Virus record (IMG/VR): IMGVR_UViG_3300025128_000295
Coordinates: 1-25,686 of that record
Strand: one strand, 5' to 3'
Source of the DNA: a virus
DNA length: 25,686 bases
In this document: positions 1-20,600 of the stretch, one piece after another
Numbering within the stretch: the first letter of the stretch is position 1
Layout: each line of letters begins with the position of its first letter
Program-made: the position numbers and the translations under genes
The notes under the pieces: model-generated
What the model was told of the DNA's origin: nothing
Database searches by the model: none
The model's input: the letters and a program-made list of their open reading frames with translations, nothing else

Positions 1-606
1 GCTGAGGGGCTGGTTCACGGCGATTATTCGTGTATTCAGGTTTTGGATGTGCGTGACGGGGAGCAGGTCGCTGTCTGGCATGGGCATATTCCGCCGGATA
101 CGTTGGCTACGGAGGTGTACCGTCTGGCTCTGTGGTACAACGACGCGTTGACGTGTGTGGAGTCGAACAATCACGGGTTGACGACGATTGTTCAGTTGCG
201 ACATTTGGGGCATCCGAACTTGTTTAGGAAACGGACGTTGAATACGTCCGTGACTAGGGTTTCTCAGGAGTTTGGTTGGAAGACGACGAGAACGTCGAAG
301 CCGTTGTTGATTGACGATTTGGGTATGGCGCTTCGTTCTGGCGAGTTGAAGATTCATGACCGGTACACGGTGGCGGAGTTGCGAACTTATGTTCGCAATG
401 AGCGGGGAACCATGGGGGGATCGCCGCATGATGACCGTGTGATGGCTTTGGCTTTGGCGAATCAGATGCGCCAGTACGCGTTTATGCCCGAGTTTGCACC
501 GAAAGTGGACGATTACTGGACGGTTGATTGGTTTGCCCGCATGGTGAAACCGGAGGAAAAGCCGGATTACACCATCGGTTCCCACTCCATGCGTGGGACA
601 CTTTGA
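1..606 (+). CDS. terL: Terminase large subunit, C-terminal nuclease domain (5' partial)
   Basis: The reading frame is open from base 1, so the ATPase half and true start lie outside the window; 201 residues are present. The family packages phage DNA: the C-terminal RNase H-like nuclease cuts concatemers using acidic residues that bind metal. Visible marks are the opening AEGLVHGDYS, which in relatives directly follows the first catalytic Asp (here lost just upstream), then ESNNHG with the second acidic residue at about residue 54, and HDDRVMALALA near residues 143-153 with the third acidic site. The gene is followed by two small genes and the portal, the usual order in packaging modules. The ATG at 43 is internal, not the real start. 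The family assignment is strong; the cut at the window edge is only positional. Confidence 0.87.
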   Translation, partial: AEGLVHGDYSCIQVLDVRDGEQVAVWHGHIPPDTLATEVYRLALWYNDALTCVESNNHGLTTIVQLRHLGHPNLFRKRTLNTSVTRVSQEFGWKTTRTSKPLLIDDLGMALRSGELKIHDRYTVAELRTYVRNERGTMGGSPHDDRVMALALANQMRQYAFMPEFAPKVDDYWTVDWFARMVKPEEKPDYTIGSHSMRGTL

Positions 607-640
607 TGTTACATTTTAGGCGACTTTGAGAGAAGGTTTC

Positions 641-952
641 ATGTCAGCAGCAGGTAAGTTCGTTTCGCATACTTCGGCTTCACGGACGGTCGATGGCGCT
701 TCGGGCCAGAACAACAAGATGGAGCGCGGCGGTTCTGTCGTGGCTAACCCGATTTGGGAACCAGCCGCACCGAACTCGCCGAAGGAACGTCTTAGTAACC
801 CGAAGTACGCCAATCAGACCGGCGGCTATGGTGAGGTCGGTGTTAGGGATACGCCGATGAACCAGCACGGTACAACCGGCAAGGTTGAACCGGGTAAGCC
901 ACAGCCAAACCTGAAGGGCCACAACGCTGCCCCCCATACTAAGCGCCCGTAG
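641..952 (+). CDS. Small hypothetical protein, probably disordered
   Basis: 103 residues starting at ATG 641, which has a good ribosome binding site (GAGAGAAGG, 628-636). A TTG at 626 in the same frame is rejected because it overlaps that site. The protein is rich in Gly, Asn, Pro, Ser and Lys, has no hydrophobic segment and no recognised motif, and looks unstructured; its C-terminal third carries many Lys, His and Pro residues. It sits between terminase and portal, where phages often carry small head or packaging accessory proteins. No function is assigned. Confidence 0.65.
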   Translation: MSAAGKFVSHTSASRTVDGASGQNNKMERGGSVVANPIWEPAAPNSPKERLSNPKYANQTGGYGEVGVRDTPMNQHGTTGKVEPGKPQPNLKGHNAAPHTKRP

Positions 953-954
953 CA

Positions 955-1227
955 GTGGCCGTCCTCCCACGGGAGGCGTCCTATGCGGAGTTCCGCGAGT
1001 ATGTGGTGGGGCTGCGTGGGGCGCTGTCCTGTGCAGAACTGGATGAATTGTGGGAACGCCGTCAAAGGCTGCTTGGCATCGGCTTCGTAACTGGTCGGGG
1101 TTACCGATCCCAGTTACCCCCCGACGAGCAACACCTGACGAGAGAAGAGCGCGGTCAAAAGACCGAAAGCGAGGCTCGTTCTCAGGGACGTAACATTGAA
1201 CGGTTGCCGGACAAGGCGATGTTTTAG
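955..1227 (+). CDS. Small hypothetical protein upstream of portal
   Basis: 90 residues from a GTG start two bases after the previous stop; its stop codon shares one base with the portal start at 1227. No clear ribosome binding site precedes it, so translation is probably coupled to the upstream gene. The N-terminal half (EASYAEFREYVVGL, then CAELDELWERRQRLLGIGF) looks helical; the C-terminal half is hydrophilic, charged and probably disordered. No family is recognised. Position suggests a packaging or head accessory role, but that is inference only. A strong inverted repeat (1087-1117) lies inside the gene. Confidence 0.6.
   Translation: MAVLPREASYAEFREYVVGLRGALSCAELDELWERRQRLLGIGFVTGRGYRSQLPPDEQHLTREERGQKTESEARSQGRNIERLPDKAMF
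1087..1117. other. Inverted repeat, possible RNA hairpin
   Basis: GTAACTGG (1087-1094) pairs with CCAGTTAC (1110-1117), and the inner TCGG (1095-1098) pairs with CCGA (1104-1107). This gives a 12-pair stem with a two-base bulge (1108-1109) and a five-base loop. It lies inside the small gene before the portal, about 110 bases upstream of the portal start. No U-tract follows, so it is not a classical terminator. It could be chance, an RNA-stability element or a protein-binding site. Confidence 0.4.
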
Positions 1228-3101
1228 TGGCGAAAAAATCTAAAACAGAAAAGTTTGACGTTGCCCAACGCCGGTTGCGTGCTTCTGCACGCTGGCGTGA
1301 CGAGATGGGTTATGACAGCCTGTGGCGACGCATGAACGATCTGTACCGTGGGAAGCATTGGCCGCGAACAACGGCGTCAACGGAAGACATGATTGCCGTA
1401 AATCTTGCTTTCAGCACGGTAAACGTGATCGCCCCGTCGGTGTCCGTCAATCACCCGAAGGTGGTGGTTTCTCCGACGAAGCCGGAAGATCAGGACCGCG
1501 CAGCGTTTGTCGAGGCTGTGGTCAACTACCTGTGGCGCCATCACGACTTCAAAAAGCCGTTCAGGCGCGCAGTCAAAGACTTTCTCGTGTTCGGCCACGG
1601 CTGGATAAAAACCGGGTGGAAGTTTCTGGAACAGGAACGAATGCTTGGGGATGCCGAACGGGACGAGTTGTTCAACACGGCCGTGACAGAAACGGACTTG
1701 TTTGCTGAAGAACGCCCCGACTTGGCTGCGGGGCTTCCGTCCGATGAGCAGATCGAATCGGGTATTCCGCAGACCGCCATGACTGTGGTTGAAGATCAGC
1801 CGTTTGTGGAGCGGATCAGCCCGTTCGACATGTATGTGGATCCGGAGGCGACCTGCATTGAGGATGCCAAGTGGATCGCGCAGCGGATCACACGCAGGTT
1901 GGAGGACGCTAAGAGCGACAAGCGGTACAAGGCTTCTTCTAGGAAGCGGTTGACTGCTGATTCGACGGTGTTCCCGATGTACGACACTGCTGAGAAGCAG
2001 GAGAAGGAAGAGTATCTGCGAGAAGAGGATCGGGTCGTTATCTTCGAGTTTTACGACGTGTCAGAGAACACGATGAGCGTGTTCTCCATGACTGGCGATG
2101 ATTTCCTTGTCGATCCTATTCCGATGCCGTATGCGTATGGTCAGCCTTTCGTGATGCTGCGGAACTACGATGTTCCCGATTACTTCTATCCGATGGGTGA
2201 TCTGGAGTCAATCGAATCGTTGCAGTTGGAACTGGACAAGACTCGTTCCCAGATGATGAATGCGCGGAAACGGTACGCGCGAAAGTACCTGTACCACGAG
2301 CGTTCGTTCGGTCCTGAGGGCCGCGAGGCTTTGGAGTCCGATCAGGACGGCCGTCTGGTGCCGGTGGTGGACGAGAATAAGCCGTTGAGCGAGATTGTGG
2401 TGCCGATGCCGCAAACCCCGCTGTCTCCCGAAGTGTACAACATGTCGGAGATCGTGGAGCAGGACATCAACACGGTGTCGGGTGTGTCGGAATATGCGCG
2501 CGGGCAGATGCCCGAGATTCGCAGGACAGCAACTGAGGCGAGCATTATTGCGGACGCCGGGAACGCTAGGGCTGCGGACAAGTTGGCGATCATTGAGATC
2601 GGTATTTCCCACATTGCGCGCCGAGTGTTGCAGTTGATTCAACAGTTCATGACCGGAGAGCAGATGGCTAGAGTGTCTGCCCGTTCCGGCGAAGATCTTT
2701 TCGTTCGGTACACACGCGATGACATTACCGGAGAGTACGACTTCAGCGTGGAGGGTGGGTCTACGCAGCCGATAAATGACACGATCCGCAAGCAGCAGGC
2801 CGTGTCTTTGATGAACGCTATTGCGCCTTTGATCGGTGTGGTCATAGACCCTGCCGCTCTGGCGCGATACGTGCTGCAACAGGGCTTCGATGTGAAAGAT
2901 CCTGACAAGTTCATAATGCAGCAACCACAACAGGCTCCCACGCAGGAAGGGGCACAACCTACTGCACCCCAAGGCGGCATGGGTGTTCCTGAACCGGGCG
3001 GTCCCCCCGGCATGGGCGCGTTTGCGCCCACTGGCGGGGTTCCCCCAGAATTAGTGGCACAACTTCAGAACCAGATGGGTCTGGAACTGCCAGCGTTGTA
3101 A
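1227..3101 (+). CDS. Portal protein
   Basis: 624 residues. Portals form the twelve-subunit ring at the capsid vertex through which DNA enters and leaves, and onto which the tail adaptor docks. The N-terminal region (RMNDLYRGKHWP, then IAVNLAFSTVNVIAPSVSV and FLVFGHGWIKTGWK, about residues 30-135) has the pattern common to podovirus-type portals: a short segment before the wing, then the helix that scans the neighbouring subunit. The C-terminal 60 residues are rich in Gln, Pro, Gly and Met, an unstructured tail. The start is GTG at 1227, overlapping the previous stop by one base; no strong ribosome binding site is present, so coupling is likely. Position between terminase and scaffold supports the call. 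Confidence 0.85.
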   Translation: MAKKSKTEKFDVAQRRLRASARWRDEMGYDSLWRRMNDLYRGKHWPRTTASTEDMIAVNLAFSTVNVIAPSVSVNHPKVVVSPTKPEDQDRAAFVEAVVNYLWRHHDFKKPFRRAVKDFLVFGHGWIKTGWKFLEQERMLGDAERDELFNTAVTETDLFAEERPDLAAGLPSDEQIESGIPQTAMTVVEDQPFVERISPFDMYVDPEATCIEDAKWIAQRITRRLEDAKSDKRYKASSRKRLTADSTVFPMYDTAEKQEKEEYLREEDRVVIFEFYDVSENTMSVFSMTGDDFLVDPIPMPYAYGQPFVMLRNYDVPDYFYPMGDLESIESLQLELDKTRSQMMNARKRYARKYLYHERSFGPEGREALESDQDGRLVPVVDENKPLSEIVVPMPQTPLSPEVYNMSEIVEQDINTVSGVSEYARGQMPEIRRTATEASIIADAGNARAADKLAIIEIGISHIARRVLQLIQQFMTGEQMARVSARSGEDLFVRYTRDDITGEYDFSVEGGSTQPINDTIRKQQAVSLMNAIAPLIGVVIDPAALARYVLQQGFDVKDPDKFIMQQPQQAPTQEGAQPTAPQGGMGVPEPGGPPGMGAFAPTGGVPPELVAQLQNQMGLELPAL

Positions 3102-3118
3102 CGGGACAGTTGTCCCGT
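3101..3118. promoter_or_regulatory. Perfect hairpin at the portal stop codon
   Basis: ACGGGAC and GTCCCGT are exact inverse complements separated by AGTT, starting on the last base of the portal stop. Together they form a compact 7-pair stem with a four-base loop in the 57-base gap before the scaffold gene. There is no T-tract after it (GTAAATAGG follows), so it is more likely an RNA-processing, stabilising or attenuating element than a strong terminator. It could set the ratio of portal message to scaffold and capsid message. Confidence 0.5.
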
Positions 3119-3158
3119 GTAAATAGGAGCAACCTAAAGGACTCCGAGAGAGGAAAAC

Positions 3159-3914
3159 ATGGACGAGGACGTTACGGAATCCGCTTCGGCGGACAATCTG
3201 GATTCTTCGGTGGAGGTTCAACAGGAACCTGCGGGCGATTCGTACACCGTAAAGGTGGACGGATCCGAAGAGCAGGTCAGTCTGAACGAACTTCGGGATG
3301 GGTACCAGCGACAGTCGGATTACACCCGTAAGACGCAGGAGTTGGCATCCGAACGTAAACGATTAGAGCAGGCAGAGGCTATTGTGGCTTCTCTGGAGTC
3401 AGATCCAGAGGGGACACTGCTGGCGTTGGGAGACGCTTTCGGTGTGAGTCCGGCAACTCCGCAACACGTACCACCCCCACGGACGGACACGTCCGACGAC
3501 TGGGCGAGTGATTCGTGGGAGGAACAGTCAGATCCTACATCGGATCGTATAACCCAACTAGAGGCGCGTCTGGCGGCTCAGGATCGTTTGCATAGACGAC
3601 AAGAAGTGGAGAAGCAGGTAGAGGACCTGCAGTCGGAGTACGGCACCTTTGATCCTTCGGATCTTTTCCAACATGCGTTGCGACACAAGATCGGCAATTT
3701 AGAGGCGGCGTTGACGCACATGCGTTACGGCGACGTTGCTGATCGGGCAGCAAAGTTGGAGAAAGAGCAGGAGCGAACTGAGGCAAAACGTGGCGCCAGC
3801 GTGGTGGAACCTGCGGGTTCCAAACAGGCTGGGTCTACGCGCAGTACGGCGCCTGAACAGGTATCTTCTATCCGTGAAGCGTTTGAAAACGCCAAGCGGG
3901 AACTTGCTTCGTGA
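3159..3914 (+). CDS. Capsid scaffolding protein (putative)
   Basis: 251 residues, ATG start preceded by GAGAGAGG. Scaffolds direct coat subunits into a correctly sized procapsid and are then removed. The sequence has the usual features of this class: an acidic N-terminus, then YTVKVDGSEEQVSLNELRDG and YQRQSDYTRKTQELASER (about residues 27-67), a signature often seen in phage scaffold or capsid assembly proteins. A long charged helix with coiled-coil character follows, then a disordered Ser/Asp/Pro stretch, a second coiled-coil segment near residues 125-160 and a helical C-terminus (SSIREAFENAKREL) where scaffolds typically bind coat. It lies directly before the capsid gene. No protease motif is seen. 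Confidence 0.75.
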   Translation: MDEDVTESASADNLDSSVEVQQEPAGDSYTVKVDGSEEQVSLNELRDGYQRQSDYTRKTQELASERKRLEQAEAIVASLESDPEGTLLALGDAFGVSPATPQHVPPPRTDTSDDWASDSWEEQSDPTSDRITQLEARLAAQDRLHRRQEVEKQVEDLQSEYGTFDPSDLFQHALRHKIGNLEAALTHMRYGDVADRAAKLEKEQERTEAKRGASVVEPAGSKQAGSTRSTAPEQVSSIREAFENAKRELAS

Positions 3915-3934
3915 CAAGAGAGAGGTAACAGATT

Positions 3935-4885
3935 ATGGCGGCTGGTAACAGCAACTTTGACGAGATTCTGTCTACCACCCTCAAGAACTACGTCCCGAAA
4001 CTCACTGATAACATCTTTAGCGCACGGCCTTTGTTCTATGCGTTGACGAATGGTCAGACGATTCGGCGTATTTCGGGTGGTTCGAAGATCGTCGTCCCGA
4101 TTATTTACGGGACCAACTCAACGGCCGGTTCGTACTCAGGTACGGACACTATTTCCACGACGGCACAGACGGGCATTAGCGCGGCTGAGTACGACTGGAA
4201 GCAGTATGCGGCCACTGTGACCATCAATGGTATGGAGGAAGCCAAGAACAACGGCGAAGCCCAGATCATTGATCTGCTGGAAGGCAAGATCTTCCAGACA
4301 CAGGAAACCATCATTGAAAACATGAACACCATGTTGTTCGGAAACGGCACCGGTAACAGCAGCAAGGATATGCTCGGTTTGAGCGCCTTGGTTGGTTCCA
4401 CCGGTTCACCCGGCGGCATTGATGCCACCGATGGTGACAACTCGTGGTGGCGTTCAGCGGTAACCAATCAGGGCGGTGCAATCACCATTGCCGCGATGGC
4501 TACCCTGTACAACAACTGTTCGGTTGGTAACGACCAGCCGACCATCTGCATCACCGGTCAGAACCAGTACGAGGCTTACGAGGCTCTGCTCACCGATCAG
4601 ATCCGTTACACGGATACTGATATGGCGGACAGCGGCTTCCAGAACCTTCTGTTCAAGGGCTGCCCGATGACGTTTGATGGAACCTTGGCTGGGGAAGGGA
4701 AACTGTACTTCCTCAACACCAAGTACCTTCAGTTGGTTGCACATAGCGACGTTTGGTTCAAGCCAACGCCGTTCGTGCGTCCGACCAATCAGGACGCGGT
4801 GTTCTCGCAGTTGCTCTGCTACGGCGAGTTGACGACGAGTAACCGTGCCCGTCAGGGCTACATGTACGGCATCACGCCTGCCTAG
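3935..4885 (+). CDS. Major capsid protein
   Basis: 316 residues, ATG start with AGAGAGAGG upstream. The N-terminal region (STTLKNYVPKLTDNIF then ARPLFYALTNG) and the segment from SAAEYDWKQYAATVTINGME to EEAKNNGEAQIIDLLEGKI match the pattern of a widespread family of phage coat proteins presumed to have the HK97 fold: an extended N-arm, a long spine helix (about residues 100-130) and a beta-rich peripheral domain. There is no long N-terminal delta domain, which fits the separate scaffold gene just upstream. The C-terminal part (VWFKPTPFVRPTNQDAVFSQ) is typical of the axial domain. Capsid assignment is strong; the fold is inferred from family knowledge. Confidence 0.87.
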   Translation: MAAGNSNFDEILSTTLKNYVPKLTDNIFSARPLFYALTNGQTIRRISGGSKIVVPIIYGTNSTAGSYSGTDTISTTAQTGISAAEYDWKQYAATVTINGMEEAKNNGEAQIIDLLEGKIFQTQETIIENMNTMLFGNGTGNSSKDMLGLSALVGSTGSPGGIDATDGDNSWWRSAVTNQGGAITIAAMATLYNNCSVGNDQPTICITGQNQYEAYEALLTDQIRYTDTDMADSGFQNLLFKGCPMTFDGTLAGEGKLYFLNTKYLQLVAHSDVWFKPTPFVRPTNQDAVFSQLLCYGELTTSNRARQGYMYGITPA

Positions 4886-4922
4886 TAGCACCTGATAGAC
4901 GGTAGTTGCCACGGGAGGCATC

Positions 4923-5993: not shown

Positions 5994-7673
5994 ATGCCGT
6001 TACAGGCAGATACGCGTGCGGCGCAGGCTGCTGACGCTTACCGTTACGATGAGAAGGCTGACTTTACGGGCGGTCTGAATCTGCGGGCCGACCAGTTCAG
6101 TCTCGCCTTGAACGAATCTCCTGATCTGCTCAACGTGGACGTTGATCCCCGTGGCGGCGTTTCCCGCAGGGACGCTGTTGACGTAATCAACCCCACGGCA
6201 GTGGGGGGTCACATCCTGAGCCTGTTTGCCCATTCGGATAGTTCTAACAATCAGGTTTTAGTTTCGGCGGTGAGTGGTAGTAACAGTACGTTACATTACG
6301 CTGCTAATGCTTCCGGAAACTTTGCGGCGGTACAGTCGTCGGCTGGTGCCGTGACGATGACGGGGTTGCAGCGTTCACAGGCAGTAACCTTCAACGACAC
6401 CACGTATATTGTAAACGGGTCACTGTTTGACACGTCGTATTCCGCTGTGGCGTGGACGGGTTCCAACAATGCAGCGCGCAAGACGCCCGACATTGACGCG
6501 TCTGACGGGCACTTTCCGTGCGCCCGCTACGTGGCAGCGTGGGCCGAGTACGTGTGGGCCGCCTATACCTTGGAGTCCGGAACGACTCATCGGAACAGGG
6601 TGAGGTTTTCTAAAGTAAACGATGCCGAAAACTGGACGGCAACGGATTACATCGACATCGACATCGGGGAAGACGGCGACCACATAACGGGAATCCTGCC
6701 GAACGCTGACCGGTTGTTGGTGTTCAAACAGAACAGCGTGTACGCGATCTACGGGTTTAGCCGCGATTCGTTTGAAGTGCGCAACATCACGCGCACCGCT
6801 GGTTGCAGGGACGGCGTTGATCCGGTTGCTGGAACTCCCGGTGTTTTCTTCTGGTATGGCGAAGACGGCATATTTCTGTTGACTTACGACCAGATGGTGT
6901 GGGCCTTTGAACGGCTGAAACCTGCTTTGGATGATGGTTCGTTGACGTTATCGACAGCACCATCCATGATGTGGTTTGACGAGAAACTCTGGGTGTCTGC
7001 GGACTTTCAGTCCGGAGACAACCTAGCGGGTTCCGCCCAAACCAACCGGCGCAACACGTTTATGTGGGATCCGTCTCTGGGAACCGGGGGCGCATGGACG
7101 CGATATGACATCAATGCCAGATCGCTGCTGGCGTATCGGCCGTCAGGAGCGCAACATCTGGGGCTAGCCGTAACGTCTGATGTGAGCGGCACCGCTGCCT
7201 TTACCAGAGTTGCCAAGGTAAACGTGGATGCTGACCGGGATGACTATACGGGGTCCGGTGATGCCGCCGATCTGGAGGAAATCCAATCCTTCTATCAAAC
7301 CGGGTGGTTTATCGGCAACAGGCCCACTTTCCCCAAGAGGTGGGGAAAGACGCGCACTGTAATGTTGGCGGACAATACCGTAAACGTGCGCATGGGAATC
7401 TACAAGGATTACGATTTATCGACTGAAGCAGTAACGCAGACTCAGCAGATAACGGGGTCAGCGACGGTTGCGCGGTGGGATTCGGCAGTCTGGAACAACA
7501 ATTTGTGGGAAGCCGGGGGCACGACAAACATGTACAAGTTCTTTCGTTGGCCCACGGCTGGGACAGCGAAGGCTATTAGTTTGAGGTTTAGTGTCAGCCC
7601 CGCTGCCGACAATCGCGGCAAGTGGGGGCTGACATCAGCAATAGCGATGTACAGGACTAGGAGATTGCGCTAA
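5994..7673 (+). CDS. Tail nozzle / tail tubular B-like protein candidate
   Basis: 559 residues; ATG immediately follows the previous stop. The N-terminal region (DFTGGLNLRADQFSLALNES then PDLLNVDVDPRGGVSRRDAV) is a form often seen at the start of podovirus tail-tip proteins. The middle has repeated short beta-strands with VRFSKVNDAENWTATDYIDI, then DGDHITGILPNADRLLVFKQ and NSVYAIYGFS, resembling a beta-propeller blade pattern typical of nozzle proteins. The C-terminal domain is also beta-rich. In short-tailed phages this protein forms the narrow end of the tail tube below the adaptor and gates DNA. Placement right after the adaptor candidate supports this. It could instead be a different minor tail protein. 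Confidence 0.55.
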   Translation: MPLQADTRAAQAADAYRYDEKADFTGGLNLRADQFSLALNESPDLLNVDVDPRGGVSRRDAVDVINPTAVGGHILSLFAHSDSSNNQVLVSAVSGSNSTLHYAANASGNFAAVQSSAGAVTMTGLQRSQAVTFNDTTYIVNGSLFDTSYSAVAWTGSNNAARKTPDIDASDGHFPCARYVAAWAEYVWAAYTLESGTTHRNRVRFSKVNDAENWTATDYIDIDIGEDGDHITGILPNADRLLVFKQNSVYAIYGFSRDSFEVRNITRTAGCRDGVDPVAGTPGVFFWYGEDGIFLLTYDQMVWAFERLKPALDDGSLTLSTAPSMMWFDEKLWVSADFQSGDNLAGSAQTNRRNTFMWDPSLGTGGAWTRYDINARSLLAYRPSGAQHLGLAVTSDVSGTAAFTRVAKVNVDADRDDYTGSGDAADLEEIQSFYQTGWFIGNRPTFPKRWGKTRTVMLADNTVNVRMGIYKDYDLSTEAVTQTQQITGSATVARWDSAVWNNNLWEAGGTTNMYKFFRWPTAGTAKAISLRFSVSPAADNRGKWGLTSAIAMYRTRRLR

Positions 7674-8047
7674 TGGCGGCTTTGGCTGTGACCAATTCGT
7701 TTACTGCTGGCACGTCGATTGTGGCGTCCCAGATGAACGCCAACTTTACGGATGTGGTGTCGTGGGCGACCGGGACGCCGTATTTGTCGGCGTCCGGGCA
7801 GTTGACCACAGTTCAGGGCACCCTGTCGGTTTCGCAGTTGGCTACGTTTGCGGCTGGCATCAAGATTGATGGATCGAATCCTGTTATCACGTTTGAGGGT
7901 GCGACCGCTGATGCGTATGAAACGGTTGTGAACGTGACTGACCCTACTGCCGACCGCACTATCACGATACCCAACGATACCGGAACCGTTCATCTGAACG
8001 GTGACGGCAACGCCAGCGATATTCTGTCCAACTCGGTCTTCAACTAA
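7673..8047 (+). CDS. Small tail-fibre-like structural protein
   Basis: 124 residues; the ATG shares one base with the previous stop. The N-terminus (VTNSFTAGTSIVASQMNANF) is a pattern common at the head of phage tail-fibre proteins, where it helps attach the fibre to the tail. The second half (PVITFEGATADAYETVVNVT then DPTADRTITIPNDTGTV) is a beta-rich repeat seen in viral fibre shafts. The protein is far too short to be a whole fibre, so it is either an attachment module working with neighbouring proteins or a small tip protein. It opens the tail-appendage block. Confidence 0.6.
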   Translation: MAALAVTNSFTAGTSIVASQMNANFTDVVSWATGTPYLSASGQLTTVQGTLSVSQLATFAAGIKIDGSNPVITFEGATADAYETVVNVTDPTADRTITIPNDTGTVHLNGDGNASDILSNSVFN

Positions 8048-8056
8048 GGAAAAATC

Positions 8057-8413
8057 ATGGCAACGTATTCAAAAGAGTTCCTGTCGGGCAGCACAAACGG
8101 CAAGAACATTTCCATCACTTCAACTACGGCAGGATCGCCTGTAACGATCCATACCGTCGGTTCGGGTACTTCCAACAGGGACGAGATTTGGGTTTACGCC
8201 TGCAACACTTCCGCTTCAGCGGTCGTGTTGACCGTCCAGTTTGGTGGCACGACCGATCAGGACGACTACATCGAACTGGAACTGGCAGCCGATTCAGGAA
8301 TGACCCTGATTGTGCCGGGGTTCCTGCTGGACAACAGCCTGATTGTGAAGGCGCACGCTGCGACGGCGAACGTCATCAACGTCAACGGTTTCGTAAACCG
8401 CATCACCGCCTAG
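8057..8413 (+). CDS. Small beta-rich structural protein
   Basis: 118 residues, ATG with AAGGAAAAA upstream. Alternating Thr/Ser/Val strands and many small residues suggest a beta-sandwich. Examples are ISITSTTAGSPVTIHTVGSG, WVYACNTSASAVVLTVQFGG and VINVNGFVNRITA. No signal peptide or membrane segment is seen. Similar small all-beta proteins occur among phage virion genes as decoration or tail-tip proteins. Neighbours are tail-appendage genes, so a virion surface role is the best guess. No family name is assigned. Confidence 0.6.
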   Translation: MATYSKEFLSGSTNGKNISITSTTAGSPVTIHTVGSGTSNRDEIWVYACNTSASAVVLTVQFGGTTDQDDYIELELAADSGMTLIVPGFLLDNSLIVKAHAATANVINVNGFVNRITA

Positions 8414-8416
8414 CAG

Positions 8417-9070
8417 ATGTTCCGTCAGGACCGCACCAACCCGTCCACCGCCGTATCAAACTGGCGGGGGCGGCATGACACGCCGAAGGCGTGGCCTTCG
8501 ACGGCTGTGTCTACTTGGCTGAACGGCGGCCTGTTTGGTCAACCAGACTCTTTAGAGGCGCTTGAGTCATCGGTATTCGGATCGGATGCGTCGTCGGTAA
8601 CATTCACTTCGGCTGGATCTTCGGCTTCCCCGTGGACGGAATACCAAGACCTGATGATCGTTTCTTATGCCCGTTCAGCGGTCGCTGGTACTTCGGCGGG
8701 TGGACTGACCGTTCGATTGAATGCGTCATCGTCGCCTTATCGGCTCCAGTATCTGTACGGGAACATTTCGACGGCGACGGCGGCATGGGAAAGTAACGAC
8801 GGGGCACGGTTGGGGGCAACCGCCCGTGCTGGGTGGACGGCGAACACGTTTGGTGGAGCGCGGGCTTACCTGAGTGACATCAACTCTGCGAAATGGAAAG
8901 TGGTTACTGGGATGAGCGGCGTCGCTGACGCTTCCAGAGGCGACGTAATGCAAGTGACGACGCTATGGGAGAACACGGATGCGGTTACTTCTATCGTCAT
9001 TCTGGATGCAGGCGGCGGCAACATTCTCACTGGTTCACGTTTCGACCTGTACGGACTGAGGGCCACCTGA
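8417..9070 (+). CDS. Tail appendage beta protein, first of three related genes
   Basis: 217 residues, ATG three bases after the previous stop without a clear ribosome binding site. The N-terminal 40 residues carry the motif PSTAVSNW and then PSTAVSTWLNGGLF, a doubled PSTAVSxW element that may be an attachment peptide. The rest is a beta domain: SSVTFTSAGSSASPWTEYQD, then LTVRLNASSS, ending in GGGNILTGSRFDLYGLRAT. The VTF(S/T)S opening and F-x-L/I-YG ending recur in the next two genes, so the three are taken as paralogues. Likely a receptor-binding or tail-tip adhesin component; this is inferred from context. Confidence 0.6.
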   Translation: MFRQDRTNPSTAVSNWRGRHDTPKAWPSTAVSTWLNGGLFGQPDSLEALESSVFGSDASSVTFTSAGSSASPWTEYQDLMIVSYARSAVAGTSAGGLTVRLNASSSPYRLQYLYGNISTATAAWESNDGARLGATARAGWTANTFGGARAYLSDINSAKWKVVTGMSGVADASRGDVMQVTTLWENTDAVTSIVILDAGGGNILTGSRFDLYGLRAT

Positions 9071-9591
9071 TGGCTTACGAACTTATCGAAAGCCAGACTC
9101 TAGGTTCAGACCAAACGTCGGTGACGTTCTCGTCGCTCGGCTCCTACGAGCATTTAGAGATTCTCATGACGGTACGAACCGATCTCAACACCACGCCAGG
9201 TTACGACTATGTGGGCATTCAGTTCAACGGTGACACGGGCAGCAACTATGCGACCCAGACGATGTACGGGTATGACACGACTGAGGGGACTACACGGGAA
9301 ACGGGAAACGCCAATGGGATGAAGGTTCATATCGCAGCGTGTGACCCTGAGAACGCCGCCAACTTCGGAGGCGGGAGCGTTTTGATTGCCGATTACCGTG
9401 GGGCCAACGTCAACAAGACATCGACTTCAATGGGTGGAAAGTCGGGTGCATCCAACAAGGGGTTCACTTCCAACGGGACGGGCGAGTGGGATAATACGGC
9501 GGCGATCACTTCGGTTGTGTTGACGCCTGGTGGTGGCACCAACTTCAACTCTGGGTCCGTGTTTACCATTTACGGGCTGAGGAGTGTCTGA
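9070..9591 (+). CDS. Tail appendage beta protein, second of three related genes
   Basis: 173 residues; ATG at 9070 overlaps the previous stop (TGATG). A longer frame from 8965 exists but would overlap the previous gene by 106 bases, so it is rejected. Shared with the following gene are TSVTFSSLGSYEHLEIL, VGIQFNGDTGSNYATQTM and the end NFNSGSVFTIYGLRSV. The protein is a single beta-rich domain with Asn/Asp-Gly turns, a type used by phages for carbohydrate or surface recognition. No catalytic motif is seen. Its length equals that of the next gene exactly. Confidence 0.62.
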   Translation: MAYELIESQTLGSDQTSVTFSSLGSYEHLEILMTVRTDLNTTPGYDYVGIQFNGDTGSNYATQTMYGYDTTEGTTRETGNANGMKVHIAACDPENAANFGGGSVLIADYRGANVNKTSTSMGGKSGASNKGFTSNGTGEWDNTAAITSVVLTPGGGTNFNSGSVFTIYGLRSV

Positions 9592-10112
9592 TGGCAGCCT
9601 TTGAACTGATTGAGCATGTGGAAGTCGGTGCGGGCGGACAGGTGTCGGTGACGTTCTCGTCCATTTCGGCTTCTTACGAAACACTCAGACTCTTTGGAAA
9701 GTTGCGCGGCGAGTCGGGAGACACGACTCAGGATTGCCTTATCAGGGTCAACGGTGATAGTGGTGCCAACTATCCGACCGAAAGGTTGGAGAGTTCAACG
9801 GGAACTCCCGTTACGAGTCTAACGGGGAGTGCCTCGTATGTTGTTATCCCATCAGCGGGCACCTCTGCGACCGCTGACACGTTCACGCAGTTTGATTGTT
9901 GGATGCCGGGTTACTCCAGCACTTCGTTTTTCAAGCCTTTCGTGATGATTGCTGGCAAGATCATTTCGGCCACGTTAAACACTAACCGAACATACATGAT
10001 CGGTGCAGAGTGGTTGGATACTTCAGCCATTGACACGATCTTGCTTCAGCCAACCGCTGGCGATCTAGCCCAGTATTCGACCATGACCCTGTATGGGATC
10101 AACGGAGCGTAA
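9591..10112 (+). CDS. Tail appendage beta protein, third of three related genes
   Basis: 173 residues; ATG overlaps the previous stop (TGATG), with GAGGAG a few bases upstream. It shares with the second copy the pattern VSVTFSSISASYETLRLFGK, LIRVNGDSGANYPTERL and the end YSTMTLYGINGA. The central part differs strongly, which is the expected pattern if the copies recognise different surfaces. No membrane segment or enzyme motif is visible. The tail assembly chaperone-like gene follows directly, supporting a tail-fibre or tail-spike context. Confidence 0.62.
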   Translation: MAAFELIEHVEVGAGGQVSVTFSSISASYETLRLFGKLRGESGDTTQDCLIRVNGDSGANYPTERLESSTGTPVTSLTGSASYVVIPSAGTSATADTFTQFDCWMPGYSSTSFFKPFVMIAGKIISATLNTNRTYMIGAEWLDTSAIDTILLQPTAGDLAQYSTMTLYGINGA

Positions 10113-10120
10113 GGACAGTT

Positions 10121-10390
10121 ATGGCATTAACAAAGATAGTAGATAACGTAGTCATCGAACTGACTGCTGAGGAGATCGCTGAGGTTGAGGCCCGTGTGGC
10201 CGCAGCCGATCTGGATTTCAGCGGGGTGCGAGGCGAACGCAACGGGTTGCTGTCCAACAGCGATTGGACACAGATAGCCGACTCGCCTGCGGATGCCGAT
10301 GCTTGGGCAACGTATCGCCAGTCTTTGCGGGATCTACCACAAACGTACACTCGCGTGTCCGAAGTGGTGTGGCCCACACCGCCTGAGTAA
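10121..10390 (+). CDS. Phage tail assembly chaperone-like protein
   Basis: 89 residues, ATG with TAAGGA upstream. The middle and end carry the well-known pattern ERNGLLSNSDWTQ, then AWATYRQSLRDLP (about residues 39-75), which marks the Phage_tail_APC-type domain found at the end of tail-fibre assembly proteins. Such domains help fold or attach fibres and often follow fibre genes, exactly as here. The N-terminal part (ELTAEEIAEVEARVAAADL) is a helix. Although the domain is named for tail assembly chaperones, no tail-tube or tape-measure genes are present, so a fibre-related role is favoured. Confidence 0.75.
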   Translation: MALTKIVDNVVIELTAEEIAEVEARVAAADLDFSGVRGERNGLLSNSDWTQIADSPADADAWATYRQSLRDLPQTYTRVSEVVWPTPPE

Positions 10391-10746
10391 TGAACACCCC
10401 GACCGACATCCGACAGGTAAAGATCCCGACTATCGCGGTCGGTTTGATCCTGTCCGTGGCGGTGATCGCTGGGACCATCACATGGTCTTCTGCTCGCACG
10501 GTGGCCCGCATCGACCGCCTGGAGGAATCGGTCGAAGCAATTGAAGACTCGATGGACATGAACGCCTACGCCCGCGTGGAGGATGTCACGGAAGACATAC
10601 GCGACTTGGAAACACGGTTGGCTGCGATGGAGGAACTGTGTAACCGCGTTGACACTATGGAGGAACTTGTCGCAGGAATCGCCACCTCTGTAAGCGCATT
10701 GTTGATGGAGGCAGAACAGGAGTGGTGGTCTGATGCCGACGGTTGA
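10390..10746 (+). CDS. Membrane-anchored coiled-coil protein
   Basis: 118 residues; ATG shares a base with the previous stop. One transmembrane segment is evident (IPTIAVGLILSVAVIAGTI, about residues 12-30), followed by a long charged helix with coiled-coil heptads (IDRLEESVEAIEDSMDM, then LETRLAAMEELCNRVDTMEE). A short polar tail ends the protein. This is the layout of inner-membrane spanins and of other phage membrane anchors, but no partner lipoprotein is found. The next small gene overlaps it by 14 bases and is also coiled-coil, suggesting the two products associate. Confidence 0.65.
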   Translation: MNTPTDIRQVKIPTIAVGLILSVAVIAGTITWSSARTVARIDRLEESVEAIEDSMDMNAYARVEDVTEDIRDLETRLAAMEELCNRVDTMEELVAGIATSVSALLMEAEQEWWSDADG

Positions 10747-10867
10747 GTATAAGCCGACTCACCGGTTTGTTGGGCCGAACGCTACATCTATTGAGTACGA
10801 ACTTCGGAAGATTCAAGAAAAACTGGACGACCTGGAGGCGCGTGTAGCGGCTCTGGAGTCTCCGTAG
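10733..10867 (+). CDS. 44-residue coiled-coil microprotein
   Basis: This short frame begins at ATG 10733 inside the end of the previous gene, with AGGAGTGG about eight bases upstream, and stops at 10867 just before the ribosome binding site of the next gene. The product starts MPTVEYKPTHRFVGPN and continues into EYELRKIQEKLDDLEARVAA, a regular heptad helix. Without this gene there would be a 128-base gap in otherwise packed coding sequence. No hydrophobic segment is seen. It probably forms an oligomer alone or with the preceding coiled-coil membrane protein. Confidence 0.6.
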   Translation: MPTVEYKPTHRFVGPNATSIEYELRKIQEKLDDLEARVAALESP

Positions 10868-10874
10868 GAGAAAC

Positions 10875-11162
10875 ATGGGTATCAGGAGATCAGCAGCAGA
10901 ATACGGGTCTACCGTGGGTGATGAACAGTTGGCGGTAGCCGGAACTGCCGTGTCGCTTGCTTCGGTTCCTGCCACGGCGGTAGCGGCGATGGTGACTAAC
11001 GGAGCCGAACCTATCAGGGTTCGGTGGGGAACGCCGACGGCCAGCGTGGGCCATTACATCAATCCTTACAGCGTGTTGGACTTGTACCAGGACGATTTGA
11101 CGGATGTGAAGTTTATTCGGGTGTCGTCGAGTAGCACTATCGATGTCACTTACTTCGGCTAG
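10875..11162 (+). CDS. Small beta-rich virion protein (putative)
   Basis: 95 residues, ATG with TAGGAG upstream. The sequence is a compact beta-rich domain: LAVAGTAVSLASVPATAVAA, then PIRVRWGTPTASVGHYINPY and FIRVSSSSTIDVTYFG. The final strand and aromatic end resemble small tail or head accessory proteins of phages, but no family is named. There is no membrane segment. It lies between coiled-coil genes and a tail-fibre motif gene, so a virion appendage role is likely. Confidence 0.6.
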   Translation: MGIRRSAAEYGSTVGDEQLAVAGTAVSLASVPATAVAAMVTNGAEPIRVRWGTPTASVGHYINPYSVLDLYQDDLTDVKFIRVSSSSTIDVTYFG

Positions 11163-11170
11163 GAGAGAAG

Positions 11171-11335
11171 ATGCCTTCGCGTATTACTCAACGAATCGAT
11201 CAAGTCCCCACGGGGGACATTACTGCTGTGACTGCTGGTGTTGCAATCAACGGGGGCGGTACGAGCGGTGCGGTTGTAATAAATGTAACGGTCGAGGACG
11301 ACGATCTTGTGATTGCCGGCCAGGTTTATAGTTAG
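11171..11335 (+). CDS. 54-residue stand-alone tail-fibre motif protein
   Basis: ATG 11171 has AGGAGAGAAG directly upstream and the frame closes at 11335. The product contains GDITAVTAGVAINGGGTSGA followed by VVINVTVEDDDLVIAGQVYS. The first part matches the repeat GDIT.VTAG.GL.GGGTSG found inside many tail-fibre proteins, where it forms a trimeric beta shaft. Here it is the whole protein. It may be a remnant of a longer fibre or a working small fibre unit or cap. The strong ribosome binding site and intact frame argue for a real gene. Confidence 0.6.
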   Translation: MPSRITQRIDQVPTGDITAVTAGVAINGGGTSGAVVINVTVEDDDLVIAGQVYS

Positions 11336-11358
11336 CGGGACAGAAGGAACCTATTGTT

Positions 11359-12012
11359 ATGGCGAATACACCAGGAAACGCTCCACCCTCAGTGAACCAG
11401 TTGGATGCGTTCATGCAGGCTCGATCGCCGTCGGCGGAGATCGGAAAGTTCAATCAGGATCCGCAGGCTGCCGCTGTGATGCAGTGGTTGGCGACACCGG
11501 AGGCGCAGGAGTTTTTGCGCCGGATCGTGATGGAGCAGGGTTTGATGGATCAGGGGCCGCCTCCTGGCGCACCTGGTCCTGGTTCTGGCGGGGCTCCGTT
11601 GCCAAGCCCTGGTGGCCCTCCCGGCGGTCCCGGTCCTATGGATCCAGGTGGCCGGGGCGGTCCTTCCGGTCCCGGCCATTTCCGGCCGCATGAACAACGG
11701 CCAGTACCGTCGCCGCCGCTACCACCTTGGGCCGAATCGCCGGCACCGGGCGTGCCGGGCGCTACCCGAGATCCATCAGATCCAGCATCTTTTGGCCCGC
11801 AGGGCGACCATCCGTTGACCGGTGTAGGCCGCGCTATCGCCGGCGCTCTTGGTGGTCCTCGACCAGTGTTTGATCCACGAACGGGCCGACAGTTGCATGT
11901 CGATCCGAACACGGTGCGGGGCGCTGGACGACAGTCGTCTGGCCCTGGTCGTGCTGCCGCCATTCAGGCTCTGATAGCAGAACAGGCTGCTGGCGGCAGA
12001 GTCGGTCGCTGA
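11359..12012 (+). CDS. Pro/Gly-rich putative internal virion protein
   Basis: 217 residues, ATG with AGAAGGAAC upstream. The N-terminal 60 residues are helical and contain VMQWLATPEAQEFL (about residues 40-53), which is echoed in the 692-residue protein two genes downstream. Residues 65-135 are almost entirely Pro, Gly and polar residues, clearly disordered. The C-terminal part (HPLTGVGRAIAGALGGPRPV, then AAAIQALIAEQAAGG) is helical again. It opens a run of large Ala/Gln/Arg-rich genes leading to the giant protein, so it is grouped with probable internal or ejected proteins. Function is not established. Confidence 0.55.
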   Translation: MANTPGNAPPSVNQLDAFMQARSPSAEIGKFNQDPQAAAVMQWLATPEAQEFLRRIVMEQGLMDQGPPPGAPGPGSGGAPLPSPGGPPGGPGPMDPGGRGGPSGPGHFRPHEQRPVPSPPLPPWAESPAPGVPGATRDPSDPASFGPQGDHPLTGVGRAIAGALGGPRPVFDPRTGRQLHVDPNTVRGAGRQSSGPGRAAAIQALIAEQAAGGRVGR

Positions 12013-14608: not shown

Positions 14609-17600
14609 GTGCCGTCCCGCGAAGATATTCTGGCGAACATTACGACTGGGCCTGGGCGGCCGAGCCGTAAGGACATTCTCGCCAACATGACTACGGGCGT
14701 TGACAGCCCGTTGATTAGCCTGGTGAAGGGTCCAAAGGACGCTCCGCAGCGTACGCCTGTGACGACAAGCCAGTTGGTGCCGCGGCCGGAGCCGGTGATG
14801 ATACCGGAGGCGCCGGAGCCGGAGCCGGGACCGTTCGAGTTCGCTGGCCCGTTGGGGAAGTTCATTGATCTGATCGATACGCCGCGTGCGGCGATCGTGT
14901 CGACGATCAAAGAGGTCGGGGATCTGTTCACGGGGGAGGGGTTTTCGCCTGTTGATTGGTGGAAGCAGACTGAGGACAACCTGTTTATGCAGGATGTGAT
15001 GCGTGATTGGGGGGTGGATCTTCCTGGCCCGTTGGACATGGTGGTGGGGTTGGGGTTCGACATCGCGTTTGATCCGATTACCTATATGACTGGTGGTATC
15101 GGGGGTGCCGGCCGTGCAGGGATGAGTGCCAACAAGTTGATAGATGTGATGTCGAAGGGTGCTGCCTGGTATGACGACATCGCTAAGGCTGGCGGTAAGG
15201 CTGGGGTGACGCAGGCGCAGGCTGTTCACAAGTCGAAGGTGTTGAAGGACGGTGTTACGGCTGTCGGCAGGTCGAATGCGATGCATTCGGCTGGCCGGGA
15301 GGCGTTGCAGGAGGTTGGTCTGCTGGGTCAGATGGGGTTGTTTGTTCCGACGACGGGGCGTTTGGGGCGGGGGGTGCGTCTGGACAAGGTGTTGGACAAG
15401 GCGACCAGGGGCGGGATGACGGCTCGTCGTGCCCGGCAGGCGTCGAAGTTGCCGTACATCGGGGATCTGGCTCGACCGGTCGCAGGGAAGGCTGTGGATG
15501 ATGCTGCTGAGGCGGTTGCCAGGTTTGGCCGTGAAGGACTGGAGGATGCCGCTGCGGCGGAAGCAAAGATCATTAGCCGGATGAAAGACATCTCCAAGGG
15601 TGTCGACCTGGGTGACATTCCTGACGATTTCTACACGGCGGCGGCACGGATGGCGTCGAGGATGCCGGTCGAAGCATTCAAGTTGCCTGGTTTCACCGGG
15701 AAAGTGTTGACAACTGTCGTCCCACAGTTCGGGAAGGGGAAGGCGGCTCTGTTCGATAGGAAGATTGCGGAAACGATCGACAAGTCGTTCAACACGAAGT
15801 CGAGCATCAAGCAGGGGTTGCGTAGCAAGGACTACAAGACGGTCCTGGAAGCGAACCGGGTGATGGTGAGCAACAGTGCGGGGTGGGCTGCACGCAACCG
15901 GTTCATGGATCTCATGTCGAAGGATGCGTTGGCTCTGCGTCGCAGGGCGCGACGGTTGGGGTTGGATCCTGAAACGGTCGACGACATGTTGAAAACACAG
16001 TTCTATCTGACTGATTCGTTGGGCGCCCAGGTTCTGGAGGAGGGCTTACCGGTCATCAATCCGAAGTTCCGGGAGAAGTTTGGTTCTGTCATGAGTCGGG
16101 CTGGTGACAGTGCAATATCGGATTTTTGGACTCAGGGCCGCAAGTGGATGGATGATGCTCTGATTCGAGCGAACATGTTCGGTGGGACCCAGTGGTTGGC
16201 TGCGAGCGCCGACGAGTTGTGGGTGATGCGTCGGGCGTTGGAGCAGGTGTATGACCCGACGATGCCGCGTAGGTTGATTCCTGGCGGCGAGTTCAGGGGT
16301 GTCCCGTTGGTGAACCAGATGGATGATCCGGCGAGGCGTACGATTGACGAGCAGATCAGGGCGATAGCGGATACAGAGTTTGGTGACGGGGCGCGTGAAC
16401 TGTTTGATACGAACATCTGGAAGTCTATGGATGTGTATTTGAGCAAGATCGGGGAGGGGGTGCGTCGAGCGAAGATCATGAACTTGTTGGAGGAGGGGGG
16501 TATTGCGTTCAAGGATCCGTTGACTTGGATCAAGGGGCAGAAGGATGCCGCTCATAGCGCATTGAAGGGGCTTTACGGCAACAGGGGGGACGCGTTCGAC
16601 GAGGTGTTCAAGGGTATTGAGCGTGGCCTGGATGTGGAGCAGGTCAAGGCGATGCGGATGGCTATTGCGAGGCGGGAGGGGGCGTCTGAGGTTGGGGCGC
16701 AGACGGCTGCGTGGGTCGCTGAGGTCGAGATTCTTGAAGCGAAACTGGTTGACATACAGGCCCAGTTGATGGAGGTAATGCGGGGTGTGAGCAGTAGGGC
16801 GCAGAGGTCGCGGCAGGCGCTGTACGACTTTATGACGCCTTTGTTGGAGGAAGCGTCGCTGGTCGGGTACCGGTGGAATCAGTTGAAGGCGATCAGCAGC
16901 ATGTTGGCGCAGCAGCGGACTGCGGCGACGAGAACGATCGTTGACGACAAGTTGTTGGACGACTTGATTGAAAAGTTTGGCGATGTCGAAGCGCAGATGC
17001 GGCACCTGGTGGAGGAAGCGAAGTCGCTTGCCGAGGTGTCTAAGGATGTGCAAAGCATAAAGCGGTTGCTGCATACTTTGCAGGCGCCGTTGAGCGAGTT
17101 GGATCAGCAGGGCTTGTTGGATGCGTTTCCTAAGGATTTGAAGATGCGGGAGTGGTTGGGAGATGTGTTCTTTTTCAGGGAAGTGTTTGACGAGACAAAG
17201 GTTACTGACGGCTGGTTTGGGAAGGACATCCTTGGGGAGGGGTTTGATGTACGCCAGGTGTACGACGATGATCGCCTGTTCCCTGATATTGGCAGCATCT
17301 ACCGGGATTACAACGGGATTGATGTGGCGAAACTGCCGCGGTGGATGCAGGAGGCTGACAATAGTTGGCAGGAGGTGTCCGCTGCGTATGAGGGTGCCAG
17401 GTCGCGGGGGCATAATCACGGGGTGAAACTGACTGAGTGGCAGCAGCGTCAGGCGTTGGCTGGCGGTGTGTTGTTGTCTCAGGATTCGCCGTTTGTGCGG
17501 GTCGAGGCGACGTTGCGGGATGGTGTGTGGGCGAGGAATGTTTCTGGTGGCGCTGAGGTGGCTGAGGGTGAGCCGTTGAGGTGGTCGAAGGGGCCGTCTG

Positions 17601-20600
17601 AGGGGGTGTTTGGTGCTTCACGGCGGGGGCGGGAGCCGAAGTTTTCGATCCCGTCGGAGGAAGAACTGGAGTTGGCGCACGCTCCGGCCAGGATCACTTA
17701 TCAAGATCCGGCGAAACAGGCGGCACGACGAAGTCAAGAGGAACTGACTGAGGAAGCAATCCAGGCGGCAACGGGTATGACGTTGGAGGAACGCCAGGCG
17801 TTGCGCCGCCGGGAGTGGAAGGAGTGGACTGACGCCGGCAAGCATGTCGGAGCCAAACCGCGCACGACGATGCCTGGGGAGACTGCGATGTCGGTGCAGG
17901 TCGTCGATGGCGAACGCATTATTGACGTTTGGACGATTGAGCCGCATGGCAGCGTACAGACAGTTGAGGAGTTCGGCAAGCGGGTCACTAAGTGGGTTCG
18001 TGACGGCTGGGTTGTTTCGGTGAATGGTGTACCGGTGGCTGATGTCGGCGTCGGTGGTGGGGTGGTCAAGACCTTGAAGGAAGCGAAGGAGGTGGCGCAG
18101 GCGGAGGCGGCGAAGCGTTCGGGTAGGTCGGCTGCTGATCGTATGGCGGAGATCCGTGGCACCGGGCGCGAGGTTGACCCGGAGTTGGAGGCTTTGTGGG
18201 AGGCGGAGAATCTGGCGAAGGGGGCGGATGATGCGCCGCCTTCACCCCGCATCACGCCTGGGGCAGTAGCAGCCGCCGCAGAGGCGGATGCGGTCTTGGA
18301 ACGGGTGCCTCAGGGGCTCACCGAAATCCAGGGTTTGCTGTGGCGGGCCGGGAAACCTCTGGGCGACGACTTGGCTTTGGACGCTGAGAAGATTTTGGGT
18401 AGATACCCTGGCATGAGGTCACTCCAAATGTGGGGGGGGTACTTCAACACCCCTGGTCTGGATACGACGTTGAAGTATGTGCAGGAGGCGTACCCCGCGT
18501 GGACCCAATCGCGTCAGAAGGCGTATGCGAAGAACTTGGCGGAGTATTTGCAGGAAGTAAACAAGGGTCTTGCTGATGCACGGAAGTTGTTGCAGGAACT
18601 ATCGCCCTACGCAGCGACATTTGCCGGGAGGGCAACCATCGCTGCCTACCCGGTTGCGACTTTGCCGGCAGAGCAGGTCCGCCGGTTGGCTGCGGAGGCG
18701 GCGATGGCGGCCGGGTTGCCGGCGAGGCGTGCTGCGGCACGCCGCAAGGTGTTCGCCATGTGTACGAAGGCGAAGTGCGAGTTGGCGGAAGGTGCCACGG
18801 TCGCTGCCGAGGATCTTTACACGGATGAAACGTTCAAGTTTATGAAACGCCAGATCGACATTAGTGACGCCGAGTTGGGTGGCATTATTTCTGCGAAGCA
18901 CGGGGTGTTAGATCCGGCTGAATTGGTTGAAACGTACGATGTGCAGTTGCCTAAGACGGGCGCTAAGGAAGTTGTCGCTGGACCGGAGCAACTACAGAAG
19001 TTTGTTGATCTTGTGGGGGATGCGGAGGAACTGTTCTTTTACGGTTCTGCCAAGTACCGGGTATTGATGCGGGATCTGTTGGAGAGGGCGCAACAGCGCG
19101 GCATGTTGAGCCAAGAGGTTCGTATTGTCGAGCCCACGGGAACGGGAAAGCGCGGCGGCCCTGCAGGCAGCGGGGAGATCAAGTCGAGTTTCAGTCAGTG
19201 GGCTGGCGAAACGGGGGCACCCAGGATTCATGAGATTCCTGCGGAGGCGGTCACACCGCCTCCGGCGGCGGTCACACGGCCTCTGGCAACGACTGACGAA
19301 ACCGCTGCGTCGATCACGGCGAGGCGGATGGATCTCGAAGCACGGTCGGAGGCAGCGTTCGAGCAGGACGATTACGTGGGCAGTCTCGACGACCTGAGAC
19401 ATGTAATCGAAGACTACGAACTCGACCTGGAGGCAATTGAAGTCAACCGGCAGGACGATCTTGCCGGGGTGGTACGCCCGGAAATCTGGAGCGGGGAGCC
19501 CGTCGGCCGCACCGCCGTGGTTTTAACCGGCGACGATATACAGGCGCTGCCTGGAGAAACCCGTTCTGCCGCAATCAACCGGTTCCACGACGAACAAAAG
19601 CGTCGCGTCGAATACATCCTTGACCAGAAGCGGGCCGAAATGACCACCTTCGAGCCCGGTGCGGCGGCTGCGGAGGCGGTTACGCCTCCTACTCCCCGTG
19701 AAGAGGATTCGATTCGTCGGATTAAGATAGCGGCGGAGGCGGTCACACCGGCTCCGGCAGCGGCACGGGATCCGTTCGCTGACACTCGCCTGCGTATCAG
19801 CAGGGAGGAAGGCGACGCGCTGATAGAACAGTCACCCGCACGGCCAAGCGATCCTCAGCCAGGGTTTACGGAAGCAGATGCTCTCGAACTCGAAGCCGTA
19901 CGGTACGACATGCGTGACCGCGTCGTGTGGAGCAAGGAGGCCGGACAGGCGTATGTGGCCGATATGCGGCCAGTTGTCGAACGCCCCGTCAGAGGACGCG
20001 GTAAGGAGCCTCACCGGATTTCGCTTCGCATCAGGAAAGAAGGTGGGACTTGGAATGTTTATGTGCTTGAAACGCCGGTGGAGTTCCAAGAGTTTGGTGA
20101 AGCAGCCCAGGCGTTAGCCCGCAGACTGAAGGGGACGTATGCACACCAAGCGTTCGAGCCGACCGTCCAGTGGAGCAGCAACCGGCCCGCCCCGTGGGAG
20201 CAGCGGTTCGCAGGGGTTTCGGATGCGGGTGCTGAAGGAGGGACAGGGGGTTTCCGCACGCTGAGGGACGCTAAGGCGTTCGCGGAGAAAGAGTTGGATC
20301 TCATTATGTGGGATGCGCCGACGCCGACGCTTCGGACTTCGCGTGAGATTGCGGCGGAGGCGGTTACGCCGCCTCCGACCGTGGTGGACCGGATGCCTAC
20401 CTGGATGGACAGTCAACTGGATGAGTTGACTGAGGCGCTCCGTGCTAAGCGCGAGGCGGTTACCCCTCCGCCAGCAGCGGCGGCACCTACACCGCCTCCG
20501 GCTGCGGCGGCTACCAGGGCGCCGGATCCGTCGGGAATGTACGGCCCGAAGGGCGCCCCCAAGTTCGAACAGGTGATCGTGCGTACGCCTTTCGGTGATT

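Follow-up and report, generated by a model that had tools for sequence, protein, structure and literature searches.

Three neighbouring genes in the window, the 25,686-nucleotide stretch of viral DNA analysed in this study, derive from one beta-sandwich tail protein as old copies that have since diverged, and in well over a hundred of the phage fragments examined the genes occur as a set of three. Taking sequence comparisons, structure models and analogy with known systems together, the trio is an ancient three-gene set that probably builds a 1:1:1 heterotrimeric receptor-binding tip. The three genes, the N-terminal module of the first and the two adjoining genes are as follows:

8057-8413, + strand: phrog_30535 gene, function unassigned (118 aa; E=6.9e-33); left end of the exchanged block
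8417-9070, + strand: first trio gene (217 aa); a 41-residue module fused to a beta-sandwich domain of ~170 residues (domain about 8552-9064)
8417-8539, + strand: N-terminal module of the first trio gene (MFRQDRTNPSTAVSNWRGRHDTPKAWPSTAVSTWLNGGLFG), 41 residues with a doubled PSTAVSxW; proposed virion plug
9070-9591, + strand: second trio gene (173 aa); domain only, 1-nt overlap with the stop of the first gene; model pLDDT 93.7
9591-10112, + strand: third trio gene (173 aa); domain only, 1-nt overlap with the stop of the second gene; assigned to class 3
10121-10390, + strand: tail assembly chaperone (PF16778; E=1.9e-19)

Homology and predicted fold of the three proteins

The trio proteins open with VTFTS, VTFSS and VTFSS and end in FDLYG, FTIYG and MTLYG, respectively, and an NGD(T/S)G(S/A)NY motif is present in proteins 2 and 3, as FNGDTGSNY and VNGDSGANY. 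An earlier note on this DNA had drawn attention to these shared openings and endings, to the NGD motif and to the doubled PSTAVSxW of the first protein, and had read the genes as an array of tail-appendage paralogues, the first copy bearing an extra N-terminal module; all of these features are present and the description holds. In BLASTP comparisons, proteins 1 and 2 share 33% identity over 176 columns (E=4e-17) and proteins 2 and 3 share 32% over 175 columns (E=3e-13), and the pair of proteins 1 and 3 taken alone is below significance (E=0.30). HMMs built from phages outside the lineage of the window score all three window proteins, at best 82.9, 95.7 and 110.7 bits, and the trio is therefore one family, with a homology that extends beyond chance. 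The identical 173-aa length of copies 2 and 3, for which the ATG at 9070 was taken as the start of the second protein, is incidental, since lengths differ among relatives. Promoter- and terminator-like sites at 7600-11400 show no excess over shuffled sequence, and no Rfam match was found at 7500-11500.

The model of protein 2, built from an alignment with 112 family rows, is an all-beta domain of 12 strands with a mean pLDDT of 93.7. The strand order of the protein 1 model is the same from residue 46 onward, and its confidence is low N-terminally, where residues 22-42 score less than 50 and the mean over the first 40 is under 55. The two models have their four best BFVD matches in common, ranked differently. 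As modelled, copies 1 and 2 thus share a fold, and neither of the outcomes that would have separated the copies, matches limited to chance or unrelated folds, was found. Among the BFVD matches of the models, several viral proteins with this fold bear the names collagen-triple-helix or Stf fibre. Both of these protein classes form trimers, and the matches of the models to them hint at trimers for the trio domain.

Among solved structures, the nearest folds of the trio domain are generic beta-sandwiches only. A Foldseek search of the PDB found nothing at E<=0.001. The comparison by VIA gave a best Z of 7.4 overall, with C1QL2 at Z 6.5 and scores of about 6 for lectins, galectins and chains of the C1q family, and the sequence search against solved structures gave one match only (E=0.33). 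For the three window proteins, Pfam returned 0 families at E<=10; for the nine proteins searched against NCBIfam there was no match at E<=1. The Pfam matches of family members are scattered, each family being matched by at most 2 of the 112 members (25 of the 38 families shown). The second window protein is matched over 4-170 by phrog_31512 (E=1.3e-7), a family without a named function that matches just 2 of the 112 members at E<=0.001; the first window protein had no PHROG match, and the third had none to phrog_31512 at E<=10. Phage records gave just two hits to protein 1 at E<=1, both over residues 42-216, with the module outside the match. No report on the trio family was found in the open-licence literature searched. 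Going by these sequence searches, the family is unnamed, with neither a Pfam nor an NCBIfam match for the window proteins.

Copy number, order and inheritance of the trio

An HMM of the window proteins was run on fetched contigs, and triads were present in most loci of this first sample. Clusters counted as complete when their flanks were 450 and 600 bp or longer; the three window pieces were removed and clusters with an identical domain were merged, so that L004 stands for the window in the tree. Of 47 complete clusters, 41 have three copies; six, two and one copies occur in 2 clusters each. Since one- and two-copy clusters exist (4 of 47; L038, L039, L085 and L088, two of which are annotated phage records), the domain need not occur in threes. 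Loci with copies outside trios include a Streptomyces phage and an Erythrobacter phage. For the copies outside trios in these four clusters, the best and second-best class HMMs are at most 8 bits apart, whereas the median margin in a held-out sample is 55 bits.

For the held-out sample, at least 586 relatives in viral contigs were confirmed with class 3 alone and at least 583 with class 1 alone, with 600 pattern matches listed in each scan. The loci taken were the best 80 of the 586 (class 3 query) and the best 80 of the 583 (class 1 query); one genome-collection locus was added and sequences already seen were removed. With at least 900 bp required on both sides, 90 complete clusters in 86 loci were obtained, of which 78 read exactly 1-2-3 and 2 read 123123; 4 read 12, 3 read 3, and 21232, 1123 and 2 occur once each. 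In L294, L221 and L195, the second protein has a long C-terminal extension that separates 1-2 from the 3 that follows, and in L311 the third domain lies just beyond the flank limit. In L208 the first trio gene is broken into two overlapping halves in different frames (2970-3471), with the second and third genes intact. Among the three-copy clusters of this sample, 110 of 111 read 1-2-3, and 73 of the 78 clusters that read exactly 1-2-3 remain at under 60% identity.

Two side observations concern these loci. The only genome-collection match to class 1, L314, comes from an uncultured actinobacterium bin and has three copies. Small ORFs lie between trio genes that are intact around them in L046 (6514-7047), L073 (6976-7545), L079 (2513-3082) and L294 (4485-4904), and by motif we take them to resemble HNH homing endonucleases.

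The trio genes group by position. In a tree of 57 triads (one of 58 was dropped at 80% identity), the position label changes 7 times, where at least 2 changes are needed and shuffled labels average 81.1. Across 167 triads, the distances at one position track those at the others (Mantel r 0.75-0.78, against no more than 0.184 after shuffling), and the trio is therefore inherited together. Inter-chain covariation over the same number of triads (MI with APC) gave peaks no higher than those with permuted pairing, and the permutation z-scores (148 triads) are dominated by near-invariant columns. L075b was set aside in the distance-correlation, covariation and p-AU analyses and partly in the recoding analysis described below.

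The order of classes within the lineage of the window may differ from 1-2-3. The position labels resembled 1-2-3 when the HMMs included this lineage. When it was excluded, 32 of 60 labels were recovered (13 of 20 first genes and 19 of 20 third genes), and the second genes were labelled class 2 in 0 of 20 cases and scored best as class 1 in 20 of 20. When the window lineage, L045a and L081 were recoded as 2-1-3, with L075b left out, the label changes equalled the minimum of 2; p-AU values of 0.902 for the recoded class 2 and 0.911 for the first-position genes reject neither grouping. Judged from these sequence comparisons, the order in the window lineage could be 2-1-3, as it apparently is in L045a and L081. 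The assignment of the third gene to class 3 is firmer, as is a separate group for each position, which the tree recovers within the lineage (SH-aLRT 95, 92 and 98).

These data bear on the suggestion that the three genes are independent homotrimeric adhesins for different receptors, kept together for a wider host range. A median identity within a triad of only about 33% would suit such adhesins, as would the exchange of the block between phages, and two held-out loci (L227 and L214) do bear one or two extra divergent copies or pieces next to a complete triad. However, independent adhesins would be expected to be lost or duplicated singly and often, and in the samples whole triads double instead (123123). 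The rare one- or two-copy clusters come from unspecialised relatives or from triads that have been split, and proteins two and three have no leader of their own. We therefore regard independent adhesins as improbable. The earlier note had likewise raised a local duplication that diversifies to broaden host range. This is not supported by the data, in which the copies are anciently separate and are kept as three in otherwise dissimilar phages, whose other genes, as far as tested, have no similarity to those of the window. The trio is not a recent host-range array, and the hetero-oligomeric tip is the better of the two readings that the note had offered.

Leaders, extensions and the predicted tip

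The leader is found mainly on the first protein. Among the 49 of 53 triads whose first gene has an ATG, the ATG nearest the domain lies at least 12 residues ahead of it in 45. The second and third genes, for which the start codon nearest the previous stop was chosen, begin at most 12 and 13 residues ahead of the domain, respectively, in all 53 triads each; a median of 3-4 residues precedes the domain in proteins 2 and 3, and neither a shaft nor a coupling segment is present. With the leader mainly on the first protein, the other two would therefore have to be held by it. Gene gaps range from -8 to +3 nt in 47 of 53 first and 46 of 53 second junctions, and both junctions in the window overlap by 1 base.

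C-terminal extensions of 242-388 residues show a different distribution among the 173 triads not cut by a contig end, with 13 triads in which the third protein is extended, 3 in which both the second and the third are, and none with an extended first protein. They are Gly-rich by composition in 12 of the 13 third-only triads and throughout the other three. The leader and the C-terminal extension would lie at opposite ends of the assembly. The second trio protein carries an additional Gly-rich stretch of about 270-300 residues in L294, L221, L195 and L311; in the three of these loci with complete ends, the third protein is extended as well.

Trimeric phage fibre tips are usually considered homotrimers. 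A constant trio of mostly abutting genes, with shared inheritance and a leader mainly on the first protein, fits an obligate 1:1:1 hetero-oligomer, and one copy of each chain in one tip is the simplest explanation of a set of three. The three genes would accordingly encode the subunits of a single receptor-binding tip, in which each chain would contribute a beta-sandwich (jelly-roll-like) domain and one of each would form a pseudo-threefold heterotrimer. Chain one, alone in bearing an N-terminal leader, would be the point at which the assembly attaches to the virion; the practically leaderless chains two and three would be held by contacts with chain one. The one-nucleotide overlaps between the genes may provide a balanced output of the chains, and the adjoining PF16778 protein may assist their folding. 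In the window lineage, the leader of chain one would be the 41-residue plug that is elsewhere placed on Gly-rich or Kelch-like adhesins.

The constant order and the leader mainly on protein one could also be accounted for by three different homotrimers (or rings) stacked head to tail, with protein one as the base, two as the middle and three as the tip. Such a stack would explain as well why extensions occur on the third or on the second and third proteins and never on the first in the 173 triads. However, proteins two and three are bare domains without the shaft or coupling segment of a stack, and a strict stack is ill-suited to the apparent 2-1-3 order in L045a and L081. Stacked homotrimers are the main rival reading but seem unlikely, and the heterotrimeric tip is preferred in what follows.

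Exchange of the adhesin block and comparison with known systems

The adhesin block is exchanged between phages. The window and L096 share 68% identity over 1-3412 and 85% over 3867-4896 (capsid gene), followed by short matches only to 6757, and then 99.3% identity over 8057-10397, where the L096 contig ends. A block at 99.3% beside lower identity elsewhere indicates that the tip moves as a block. In comparison with L130, identity is 93.5% over 8057-8533 and breaks off where the module ends; the match picks up again from 10384 at 90-92%, and the module forms one edge of the exchange in this case. The phrog_30535 gene at the left end of the block (8057-8413) is 96-100% identical in several phages, the other structural genes of which are far more diverged. 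Further downstream in the window, 14609-23209 is a single ORF of 2866 residues; two pieces that together span roughly two thirds of it were compared with PHROGs, and one gave no match, the other two families of unknown function (best E 4.6e-10).

The module is 85-100% identical in the 80 retained of 113 confirmed relatives and is joined to quite different C-terminal parts across loci. Sorted by letters and motifs, its carriers among 47 distinct complete genes comprise 38 Gly-rich genes, 6 Kelch-like genes and 3 fused to the trio domain; fusion as in the window is found in L001, L003 and L142. Gly_rich_2 (PF21722) is matched by all three Gly-rich examples tested; of three Kelch-like partners tested, one has a weak Kelch_1 match and two have no Pfam match. 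In module loci that reach 1500 bp or further downstream, trio genes come after 16 Gly-rich genes and after the 2 fused ones, and are missing after 7 Gly-rich and 5 Kelch-like genes. As 12 of these 30 carriers (Gly-rich or Kelch-like) are without the trio, it is dispensable in the window lineage. With the same downstream length, a PF16778 gene was found by phmmer at E<=1e-5 in 15 of 18 module loci with the trio, the other three having under 1710 bp downstream, and in 0 of 12 without it. In the genome collection, 22 stretches fit the module pattern and 0 were confirmed. One record of 93140 bp (G001) has a module gene and trio twice (L134 and L139), about 38 kb apart and with different Gly-rich partners, which is either a real double array or a chimeric assembly.

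The module is also conserved at the DNA level. At four-fold silent sites its mean identity to the window is 0.74, compared with 0.34-0.50 in five neighbouring genes (50% in the capsid gene, 50% in 8057-8413, 36% in the portal gene and 34-38% in two other structural genes), across up to 87 loci per gene that are not independent, since several are overlapping pieces of the same contigs. By analogy, we infer that the module is a putative interchangeable virion plug or anchor. Its conserved DNA may serve as a joint for adhesin block exchange, with recombination taking place at the joint of the mosaic seen in these comparisons. The 41-residue module could in turn be used as a marker of adhesin exchange in uncultured phages.

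The neighbouring genes and module partners also bear on whether the three genes might not form a receptor-binding tip but a set for decoration or capsid/tail stabilisation, as closest solved folds that are merely generic beta-sandwiches would allow. Of 87 upstream neighbours, taken as the longest ORF within 1200 bp, 40 were scanned (downstream, 40 of 88 ORFs); 16 of the 40 upstream neighbours match tail-fibre phrog_38058 and 11 match minor-tail phrog_8780, two families that may overlap. Together with the swapping of the module among adhesin-like partners and the tail assembly chaperone that adjoins the trio, these matches make a decoration set very unlikely.

The receptor-binding tip proposed here can be compared with three known systems. 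The C1q globular head is a heterotrimer of three chains (PMC5153404). The trio likewise has three related domains, and C1q-family and lectin chains are among the weak fold matches of the window models; the C1q-like matches (Z 5.8-6.5) lie in the range of a merely common arrangement, and no homology is claimed. Modular receptor-binding proteins (e.g. PMC8262889, PMC10408124), a well-known kind, combine a conserved N-terminal anchor with a swapped specificity part. The module resembles them in that one conserved N-terminal part sits on different C-terminal parts and is spread by exchange, but differs in that the conserved part is just 41 residues long and is also carried by one member of a three-gene assembly. 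Its commonest partners, the Gly_rich_2 (PF21722) adhesins, are absent from the trio of the window.

The closest parallel in gene arrangement comes from the virophage DSLV2, in which three consecutive tail proteins co-purify as a 1:1:1 heterotrimer, as shown biochemically in 2025 (PMC12724248). These are PF07484 tail-collar proteins that cluster by array position in a tree and are maintained as a trio. Here too, three consecutive same-strand tail genes of comparable size are found, and the clades of the tree follow array position, with the 7 label changes given above. Unlike the DSLV2 proteins, as described there, the window proteins come from a tailed phage and have no PF07484 (0 Pfam families at E<=10), and so they may work like the DSLV2 trio without being filed with it. 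A broader proposal, to which our confidence is evenly divided, is that the trio represents an unnamed and widespread class of tailed-phage tip, an obligate heterotrimer of three paralogous beta-sandwich chains that is apparently independent of the virophage PF07484 trio, with its threefold symmetry broken so that the leader, and sometimes a large Gly-rich adhesin, sits on some chains only, and re-hung via chain one and the 41-residue exchangeable plug. Under this reading, a large group of genes that now lack annotation would receive names. Moreover, the maintenance of the trio across diverged phages, together with a virophage heterotrimer built from another domain, suggests that a tip split into three chains is a recurring solution.
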